From: Collinsella sp. TF06-26
Lineage (GTDB): Bacteria > Actinomycetota > Coriobacteriia > Coriobacteriales > Coriobacteriaceae
NCBI RefSeq assembly: GCF_002232035.1
Contig: NZ_NKXR01000002.1
Location: 124,001 to 188,000, forward strand
Reading direction: 5' to 3'
DNA: 64,000 nt
A model generated the notes under the pieces. The model did not search any database. It worked only from the letters and a program-made list of their open reading frames with translations, and was not told where the DNA came from. The position numbers and the translations under genes were made by a program. How positions within the stretch are numbered: the first letter of the stretch is position 1; every line of letters begins with the position of its first letter. Positions 257 to 58,998 of this stretch are shown here, piece after piece.

Positions 257-424
257 ACGCGTCACTCCCGTGGGGTTCGCTAAAACTGTCTCTATTGCCA
301 CATTTTAGTCACCGCAAGGCTCCCATGCGAAGGTGCCAGACAGCACAGCAATTCGTGTCCGCGCGAGGCTTTAAACTAGATGCGATAAAGATGCATTCCA
401 CAAGAGGAAAGTGGGGCGACAGTG

Positions 425-1473
425 ATGGGCGAACTGGTAAACCGTGGAGAATCGGCAATCGTGCCCGAAGGTTTTTACAAGCAGGTTCCTCGATTCTCAA
501 CGCCGCTCGCGACAAGGCCTATACCGCCATTAACTTTGCGATGGTTGAGGCATATTGGGAGATCGGCAAGAGTATTGTTGATGAACAGGGCGGAGAGGAG
601 CGCGCCAAGTATGGCGATGCACTGATCGACGAACTTGCCGTTAGATTGACTAAGGATTTTGGCAGAGGCTTCAACGCCAGAAGCTTAAGATACATGCGTC
701 AGTTTTATCTTGCGTTCCCAATCCGGAACGCACTGCGTTCCGAATTGAATTGGACACATTACCGCAGGTTATCGCGTATAACCGACCCTAATGCTCGAAC
801 ATGGTACATGAACGAATGCGCCGATTCTCGCTGGAGCACGCGTCAGCTCGAACGCCAGATCAACACCATGTTCCGCGAGCGCCTACTTACCAGCAAGGAC
901 AAAGAGGCCGTCACCCAGGAAATCCAAGAGAGCGCCCCGGCTCGTCGCCCCGAGGATATCATCCGCGACCCATATGTACTGGAGTTTTTAGGTTTCTCGG
1001 ACGATGCTACGTTTCGCGAGAGCGATCTAGAGCAGGCACTCATCACGCATCTTCAGAAGTTCCTGCTGGAGCTTGGTCGTGGCTTCGCTTTCGAGGCGCG
1101 CCAAAAGCGCATCACCTTTGATGGGCGCCATTTCTATATTGACCTTGTGTTTTACAACTATCTGATGCGCTGTTTCGTGCTCATCGACCTTAAGACCGAT
1201 GACCTTACGCATCAGGACCTGGGCCAGATGCAAATGTATGTGAACTACTACACGCGTGAGCTCATGAACGAAGGCGACAATCCGCCCATAGGCATCGTGC
1301 TCTGCGCGGACAAAAGCGATTCGATCGTCGAGTACACGCTGCCCGAAGACAACGACCAAGTGTTTGCCGCCAAATACCTGCCGTATCTTCCAAGCAAGGA
1401 AGAGCTGGCACGCGAGCTGAGTGCCGAGTACCGCGCCATCAACGAAGCGACTAATGGCGAAGTGCAAGGATAG
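425..1473 (+). pseudogene. DUF1016 (YhcG-type) nuclease, N-terminus in another frame
   Basis: The frame ending at 1473 carries a DUF1016 protein: a winged-helix-like N-terminal region with NWTHYRRLSRI and WSTRQLERQI, then a PD-(D/E)XK nuclease-like domain with FYIDLVFYN followed by FVLIDLKTDD. The family N-terminus is not in this frame. ATG 425 in the next frame encodes MGELVNRGESAIVPEGFYKQ, which joins sensibly to SSILNAARDKAYTAINF of the main frame if one base is added near 485-488. Upstream of about 470 the main frame is basic and unlike the family. AAGAGGA at 402-408 is a distant possible ribosome site. The family is found as accessory nucleases, often near restriction or defence loci; none is seen here. 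A sequencing error, a real frameshift mutation, or an alternative start inside the main frame would each explain this. Confidence 0.65.
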
Positions 1474-51699: not shown

Positions 51700-51836
51700 G
51701 TCTCAATCTGTAACAGTTACGAGACAAAACCGGGTCTACACGTTACAGATTGAGACGAACTCAAACATCGCAAAACATAATCTCGATCTGTAACAGTTAG
51801 AGGTCATTTTCCCCGCTAGATGTTACAGATCGAGAT
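51700..51836. repeat. Palindrome array A: two 57-nt units, 80-nt period
   Basis: Units at 51700-51756 and 51780-51836. The first has perfect 15-bp arms GTCTCAATCTGTAAC / GTTACAGATTGAGAC; the second has perfect 16-bp arms ATCTCGATCTGTAACA / TGTTACAGATCGAGAT. The spacer is 23 nt. A lone half unit (ATCTGTAAC) follows near 51873. The array sits between the DEAD-box gene and the copA promoter. Confidence 0.9.
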
Positions 51837-51909
51837 GTTTGACATGAGCTGCCAACGATTGAGCAGCCACCCTCATCTGTAACGAAATGTCATACATTTC
51901 TTTCTATAC

Positions 51910-57425: not shown

Positions 57426-57723
57426 GTCTAGATCTGTAACAGGTGGACCGTCTTTAACCTTCCAAATGTTACAGATCGAGATCTTTCGGCACCGCGTCCA
57501 ACCTTTGTCTCGATCTGTAACAGTTAGAGCGGTTTTTGGCCGTTAGATGTTACAGATTAAGATATTCTCCAGCCCTGTCGTCAAACGTCTAAATCTGTAA
57601 CAGTTAGACAGGTTTTCGGCCTCTAGATGTTACAGATTGAGAACTTTCACCAGGCGCCAACCTTCTGTCTCGATCTGTAACAGTTACGAGACCAAACGGC
57701 CCCCTGTTGTTACAGATCAAGAC
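57426..57723. repeat. Palindrome array B: four 57-nt units, 80-nt period
   Basis: Units start at 57426, 57507, 57587 and 57667, each 57 nt, with spacers of 24, 23 and 23 nt that share no sequence. The left side is close to GTCTCGATCTGTAACAGTTA, the right side to TAGATGTTACAGATTGAGA, and the 12-15 nt centre varies. Each unit can fold into one long hairpin. Covers most of the 487-nt gap between the amidohydrolase start and the nuclease gene stop. Confidence 0.9.
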
Positions 57724-57764: not shown

Positions 57765-58841
57765 TCAGCGCCCATACCACTGCCGCCTCCACTGCTCAGC
57801 CAAATCGGCCCACTGCGGAATGCCCGCCAGTCTCATCTTTTCAGCCAGCTTCCCCGGATTCTTGAGCTCATCAAACGTAAACCTCAGCACCTTATGCCCG
57901 AGCATCGTCAGATGAGACTCTCGCTGACGTTCTGCCACGAACGGGTCGACCGACTCCCGACCCTCGTCGTTCTGTAAGGCGTACTTTCCCTTTCCATCGA
58001 GCTCGCCAATCACGCACGTCCCGTCCTCGAGCCTCCAGAAATAATCAACGCGAAACACTTGGCTCGAATCAAGCGGGTCACGAAACTTCACCTGCAACTC
58101 TGGCACCGGAAAACCGTATGCAATAAAGAACGCCCGGAACCGAGACTCGCCACCGTTTTCGGACAGCCCGTCCGCATGCGACGCAATCACCTGAGCTCTG
58201 CGATACCCGTGTCTGCCCTCGCAATCGGCCTGGAGCCGTTCGCAGAGGTCGTCGCGCGATATGCCCTTCGCCCGCAGCGCAGAATCGGCGATCGCCAGAC
58301 CATACGAAAACGGCGCACGCAGCAGACAATCCTCTACCGTGCGCCAAAACGGCGTCACTCGCACGCCGTCGACGCGCTCAAGCGCACCCGCCGCCTGCGG
58401 ACGCAACAGCCGGCATCCCGCACTCAGCGGCACCGAGCAACCTGTCTTAACAAGAAATCGCGGTCCAAGCAGATCATTCGGCACCTCCAGACCCCACAAA
58501 AGTGCCGCGTCATAACCCCAAAACGCCCAATCGGGATGAAATTCTGCAAGCCCTTTGATGGTCCGCAGTGCTCGCTCCGCCGGCGTCAGTACAACCCAAT
58601 CATGTTGCAAGCAGAACAAATACGGCTCGGGCTCCGCAATATCATCAGTTCCCACATGACGCCGCAGCCACATGAGCTCGGCATTGTCGTGTGTCGCAAG
58701 CAGCACGCCTTGTTCAGCCGCCTCCGTGAGCCTGGCAAGCATCCTATTCCGCGCCAACGTGTTACGTGTTGCATGCTTGTGTTTGAAAACGGTATTAGAC
58801 ACTTCCATCACCGCCACATCGGAGAAATGGACCTTTGTCAC
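57765..58841 (-). CDS. AbiEi-like / DUF559 nuclease-domain protein
   Basis: A 358-residue protein. The N-terminal part resembles AbiEi-type antitoxin-like domains common in Actinobacteria. The C-terminal 110 residues match the DUF559/Vsr-like PD-(D/E)XK fold: GGESRFRAFF, FRVDYFWRLEDG, then IGELDGKGKYAL with the catalytic E-x-D-G-K pattern, and HKVLRFTFDELKNP. It is probably a DNA nuclease or nuclease-derived regulator. GGAGG lies 5 nt before the GTG start. It is bracketed by palindrome arrays B and C, the latter ending 20 nt from its start codon. Confidence 0.75.
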   Translation of the reverse strand: MTKVHFSDVAVMEVSNTVFKHKHATRNTLARNRMLARLTEAAEQGVLLATHDNAELMWLRRHVGTDDIAEPEPYLFCLQHDWVVLTPAERALRTIKGLAEFHPDWAFWGYDAALLWGLEVPNDLLGPRFLVKTGCSVPLSAGCRLLRPQAAGALERVDGVRVTPFWRTVEDCLLRAPFSYGLAIADSALRAKGISRDDLCERLQADCEGRHGYRRAQVIASHADGLSENGGESRFRAFFIAYGFPVPELQVKFRDPLDSSQVFRVDYFWRLEDGTCVIGELDGKGKYALQNDEGRESVDPFVAERQRESHLTMLGHKVLRFTFDELKNPGKLAEKMRLAGIPQWADLAEQWRRQWYGR

Positions 58842-58861: not shown

Positions 58862-58998
58862 GTCTTGATATGTAACAGTTAGACGTTCTCCAGGCCCCTA
58901 AACGTTACAGATTTAGACAAACCAGCGGCGCCCAAGTATTCGTCTCGATCTGTACCAGGTAGACCGGTTTTTTGTCCCTAAACGTTACAGATCGAGAC
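58862..58998. repeat. Palindrome array C: two 57-nt units, 80-nt period
   Basis: Units at 58862-58918 and 58942-58998 with a 23-nt spacer. Both have the right half AACGTTACAGAT; the second unit's left half (GTCTCGATCTGTACCAGGTA) is the most diverged of the set. It fills most of the 197-nt gap ahead of the DUF559-type gene. Confidence 0.88.

Follow-up and report, generated by a model that had tools for sequence, protein, structure and literature searches.

Regularly spaced palindromic arrays at shared intergenic loci of Collinsella aerofaciens and its close relatives: candidate tandem recognition sites for a DNA-binding protein

The closest described kind of element to the arrays reported here is that of the REP, REPIN and BIME repeats with their RAYTs (PMC3116915, PMC2817692, PMC6006769), for which a 5' hairpin foot bearing the tetranucleotide GT[AG]G serves as a REP/RAYT criterion (PMC6006769). 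Most REPINs are singlets, and their ordered clusters consist of copies that include the flanks (PMC3116915). Like REPINs and BIMEs with a RAYT (TnpA-REP), the Collinsella arrays are made of intergenic, hairpin-capable inverted repeat pairs with a variable loop and a variable copy number per cluster, but they differ in that linkers and loops are unrelated, the period is a single exact one, and there is no exact isolated arm, no associated RAYT and no GT[AG]G foot, the outer flank consensus before TCTC being W W T/C R without GTAG or GTGG. With tandem arrays of operators or nucleoid-protein sites, taken as a general kind, they share sequence-constrained, dyad-symmetric half-sites, constant spacing and selection as DNA sequence, while differing in that about 20 loci next to unrelated genes carry 2-5 long dyads (about 63 bp) spaced by 80-81 bp, with no known protein. 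A published description of these arrays was not found in the literature searched, in which few subscription journals were covered, and they are rated as related in kind to interspersed palindromic or tandem binding-site arrays. Among bacterial palindromic repeats it is rare for a family to combine a single exact period and a single exact loop length with arms that are strongly selected and never occur as exact isolated copies.

The reported array lies in a window of 64,000 nucleotides, the whole stretch of DNA analyzed, from a Collinsella genome of 2.26 Mb in 41 contigs, and consists of four units in which ATCTGTAACA begins at 57432, 57513, 57593 and 57673 (Table 1). Each unit, 55 nt long, has two inverted 15-bp arms (TCTCRATCTGTAACA and its mirror) on either side of a 25-nt loop, with an additional TAG/CTA and an A/T centre. 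Linkers in this array are 25 or 26 nt long, and arms consequently recur every ~40 bp in alternating orientation. The initial annotation had described four 57-nt palindromes at a strict 80-nt period with spacers of 24, 23 and 23 nt; the four units are real, while the period is 80-81 (intervals of 81, 80 and 80) and the units are better drawn as 55 nt with linkers of 25/26 nt. Two further arrays in the window, at 51701-51835 and 58863-58997, had been missed. A near-arm, TCTGTAACG, at window positions 51876-51884, 89 bp past the last unit of the copA-side array, is possibly the remnant of a third unit.

Table 1. Array units and the intervening gene, in window coordinates.
Feature	Coordinates	Strand	Remark
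Unit 1, third array	51701..51755	.	between DEAD-box helicase gene and copA
Unit 2, third array	51781..51835	.	80 from unit 1 of third array
Unit 1, reported array	57427..57481	.	arm-25 nt loop-arm
Unit 2, reported array	57508..57562	.	81 from unit 1
Unit 3, reported array	57588..57642	.	80 from unit 2
Unit 4, reported array	57668..57722	.	80 from unit 3
358-aa protein gene	57765..58841	-	between first and second arrays; DUF559/PD-(D/E)XK-like C-terminus
Unit 1, second array	58863..58917	.	arms carry 2 mismatches
Unit 2, second array	58943..58997	.	80 from unit 1 of second array

A pattern search for perfect units, in which loops of 10-40 nt were allowed, returned 38 from this genome, all with a 25-nt loop, as compared to 0 for the reversed pattern used as control, and hence the units are not due to chance. 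With mismatches permitted, 52 units could be assigned to 19 arrays of 2-5 units each, with a loop of 25 nt in 51 of them and 26 nt in one, and the 33 within-array intervals measure 80 in 21 cases and 81 in the other 12. The 10-nt arm core ATCTGTAACA has 84 exact copies in the genome, every one of them inside an array. The 114 stretches examined from other Collinsella show a 25-nt loop in 352/355 units and spacings of 78-81, with 217/218 intervals at 79-81. The period and loop length noted for the reported array thus persist genome-wide and genus-wide, the contrast with REP scatter drawn from it holds, and neither random spacing nor constant copy number, named in the initial annotation as the outcome to count against it, was seen.

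Arrays are present in 24 of 45 Collinsella genomes, with 18-48 perfect units each, while G038 contains a single perfect unit and the other 22 genomes of the family that were searched contain none. A sequence model was run over 199 genomes of the order, with no match outside the genus, and then with laxer filters over ten genomes of the genus; it revealed single sites in G018, G030, G038 and G039, Collinsella that are otherwise array-free. The array-bearing genomes fall into a single group on a tree of the gene neighbouring the reported array, and the arrays are confined to C. aerofaciens and close relatives. The reported locus holds an array of 1 to 5 units in all 24 array-bearing genomes and none in six relatives without arrays, and 120 of the 137 arrays sampled from other Collinsella map to one of the 19 loci found here, with 1 to 8 units across the sampled loci and a recent tandem duplication of one unit in L177. 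Unit number varies between species, and even without an assembling protein the arrays constitute natural variable-number markers. In G039 (L266:7284-10748) and G018 (L267) a single unit with partly decayed arm positions lies upstream of clpB, and in G039 homology to C. aerofaciens, at 87%, sets in with the unit and extends across clpB. The single units in G018, G030, G038 and G039 are likely imports from the C. aerofaciens group by recombination, which is not proven because clpB is well conserved.

The symmetrised profile of 151 nonredundant units reads TCTC-R-ATCTGTAACA-nn-TAG, followed by an A/T-rich centre. Comparison of orthologue-like units gives substitution frequencies of 0.2-2% at many arm positions, 0.3-1.8% at positions 25-27, which played no part in unit detection, and 2-4% in the A/T centre, as against means of 12% in the loop and ~21% (range 20-27%) in the linker; arm positions 23 and 24 are free, at 28% and 21%. 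Part of this conservation could come from shared ancestry and from exchange between arrays. Purifying selection on the dyad is evident from these comparisons, and the arm constraint acts on sequence rather than on pairing, since the variable arm pairs do not covary, with no more compensatory change than in shuffles, and all 15 arm pairs are Watson-Crick in just 35/151 nonredundant units. Single-base length changes in the linker occur at a per-substitution rate about equal to that of the flank, and despite such gains and losses the linker is 25 or 26 nt long in 237/246 cases, which suggests stabilising selection on spacing, although less strongly than the substitution rates argue for selection on the arms.

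Invariant blocks (TCT, ATCTGTAACA and TAG) with free positions between them and symmetry about an A/T centre point to sequence-specific binding by a dimer or tetramer. It is proposed that a putative, sequence-specific and probably architectural DNA-binding protein recognises the arrays at the DNA level as tandem sites, a proposal we regard as about equally likely to be right or wrong; tandem protein-binding sites also fit best among the three roles that had been suggested for the reported array. Each unit would represent a dyad of two half-sites of about 20 bp (TCT..ATCTGTAACA..TAG), about 40 bp apart from centre to centre and flanking the A/T-rich midpoint, and with two or more dyads at 80-81 bp neighbouring complexes would be able to touch and to assemble cooperatively. 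No candidate for such a protein emerged from those examined, namely ParB, the Y1 transposase and the adjacent 358-aa protein. Nucleosome-like phasing of A/T at 10.4 bp would have spoken for wrapping but does not reach significance (p = 0.23), and units give no signal of directionality within arrays, with 17/31 neighbours sharing centre polarity.

Each unit folds well beyond its dinucleotide shuffles on both strands (z of -4.2 to -7.6), which for single units follows from their being palindromic. Pairing is reliable in the arms alone and not in the loops. Complementarity within loops amounts to 1.89 of 9 positions as compared to 3.07 +/- 0.12 when loop halves are re-dealt, 499 of 500 shuffles pair better than real loops, and position 12, next to the stem, is paired in 19 units versus about 49 expected; this avoidance persists when units are oriented by centre polarity. 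Long perfect palindromes are unstable, and selection against them is the likeliest source of the avoidance, which goes beyond simple protein binding and needs an extra reason of this kind. That the arrays are structured RNA, or bidirectional hairpins that end or stabilise transcripts, would agree with the good folding of every unit on both strands, but it is a very improbable account, given that arms lack covariation, loops avoid pairing, no terminator-like site was found, Rfam gave only sub-threshold matches, none of them on the array, and arrays often lie between divergent genes. A structured RNA family was likewise set aside, there being no compensatory helix changes and no match to a curated family, and the structured non-coding RNA array suggested at the outset is disfavoured, as placement between divergent genes is as common as elsewhere. 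The units do not appear to be a conserved RNA hairpin, because compensatory change is lacking at the variable arm positions and self-pairing is avoided in the loops.

All 19 arrays in the genome are intergenic, 9 between divergent, 5 between convergent and 5 between tandem genes, contexts that are approximate as genes were called by a simple codon model. The neighbours include clpB, glmS, a gene for an EF-Tu-like GTPase, glycosidase genes, copA, a gltD-like gene and dxs, and since they are functionally unrelated a single regulon is unlikely. Arrays in G002 are mostly origin-side, with weak avoidance of the terminus, although the counts are too few. Operators of a global transcription regulator, each controlling one or both adjacent promoters, would show the dyad symmetry observed, and the arrays between divergent genes lie mostly about 95-355 bp from both starts; however, the five arrays between convergent genes have no adjacent gene start, the neighbours are unrelated and a fixed spacing of 80-81 bp exceeds what operators need, and hence this alternative is considered distinctly unlikely. 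Position at operon boundaries beside unrelated genes suggests instead an architectural or insulating role for the proposed binding protein, and the fixed 80-81 bp between dyads suggests contact between neighbouring complexes. From these features we infer protein binding, neighbour contact and a role in local chromosome organisation or in insulation between operons, rather than in control of one regulon, with complexes assembling at operon boundaries. In its fullest form, this reading would have the putative protein build nucleoprotein arrays with a regular spacing of 80-81 bp at about 20 fixed operon boundaries in each genome, as a clade-specific chromatin or insulator system whose array length evolves by gain and loss of units, an extension that is offered tentatively and may well not hold. 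If such a protein assembles, C. aerofaciens, a common human gut bacterium, would have about 20 genetically fixed, regular nucleoprotein platforms, and chromosome organisation at operon boundaries would become directly testable.

A mobile origin was also considered, in which the arrays are domesticated relics of a REP/REPIN-like non-autonomous element, spread by a transposase as inverted pairs at the base of the C. aerofaciens clade and afterwards fixed in place at about 20 loci, recombination altering the number of units. REPIN-like anatomy (inverted arms and a variable loop), a burst limited to one clade, at least one Y1-domain protein in every array-bearing genome and the recent duplication in L177 are consistent with it. 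However, for ten Y1 genes examined in the array-bearing genomes, arms were absent to a distance of about 500 bp and the fetched loci contained no unit, so copies do not flank a RAYT gene; Y1 types differ, with a single type with a degraded HUH motif in G000 and only another type in G032; dispersed copies, common singlets and insertion differences are not found, most loci being shared; and arm constraint remains strong long after the spread. We consider such relics unlikely, and a RAYT/Y1 transposase was discarded as the cognate factor following the family search and the ten loci without adjoining arms. The statement that no cas or RAYT gene is adjacent to the reported array was borne out, while the suggestion that it is the substrate of an unknown element is weakened by the fixed orthologous loci. 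The genome itself encodes, at L226:7266-8300 on contig C12, a Y1 (IS200/RAYT-like) protein whose HUH motif, NHVHL in relatives, has degraded to SDCVD and which has a helix-turn-helix-like C-terminal segment.

CRISPR arrays resemble the present ones in their short conserved repeats and unique spacers of fixed length, but here repeats alternate in orientation, and loops and linkers have been passed down with their orthologous loci instead of being acquired; with alternating arms and no cas among the flanking proteins tested, a CRISPR array was rejected. Integron attC arrays likewise consist of imperfect palindromes whose variable centre avoids full pairing. The attC R''/R' boxes have the consensus RYYYAAC and GTTRRRY, which the arm core TGTAACA/TGTTACA does not fit, and boxes, cassettes and an adjacent integrase are all absent here. 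The parS consensus is a contiguous palindrome, whereas the arms offer only a half-like TGTTACA in halves that are not contiguous, and a single canonical ParB occurs in genomes with and without arrays alike, so that ParB/Noc sites were dismissed. Weak ParB-HTH matches in several array-bearing genomes correspond to a gene at window 389-1470 for a protein of about 361 aa in relatives, which we take to be DUF1016/YhcG-like and of nuclease type.

The 358-aa protein has conserved D..ExDGK residues and paralogues at about 35-44% identity in most Collinsella. Its orthologue is found in 21/24 array genomes, as a pseudogene in one of those (G025), and is deleted in G001, G004 and G005, where one or two units connect the left-hand flank of array 1 with the right-hand flank of array 2. 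Arrays therefore recombine with each other, and the gene was lost three times independently, while the arrays persist in genomes where it is broken or deleted, which argues against the protein as cognate factor. Even without an assembling protein, the arrays are recombination hot spots at which a gene was deleted at least three times. The 15-bp stem and open 25-nt loop could alternatively be read as structure, in a single-strand or cruciform substrate for recombination or replication, in keeping with the fixed loop length, the avoided pairing at the stem-loop border and the deletion of the intervening gene; but uncompensated mismatches at positions 23-24 of the stem are frequent, an adjacent recombinase and cassette exchange are absent, and ordinary homologous recombination accounts for the deletions, making this reading extremely improbable. 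An array as prophage attachment site was also rejected, with L155 looking like a chance case. In L154:1-1130, from a viral-collection contig, a Collinsella chromosomal segment of about 1.1 kb that contains an array is followed by a tyrosine integrase. Host homology does not stop at the array but extends as far as the end of pdxK, so the prophage in L154 is integrated there, next to the array, and the array itself does not form the junction.
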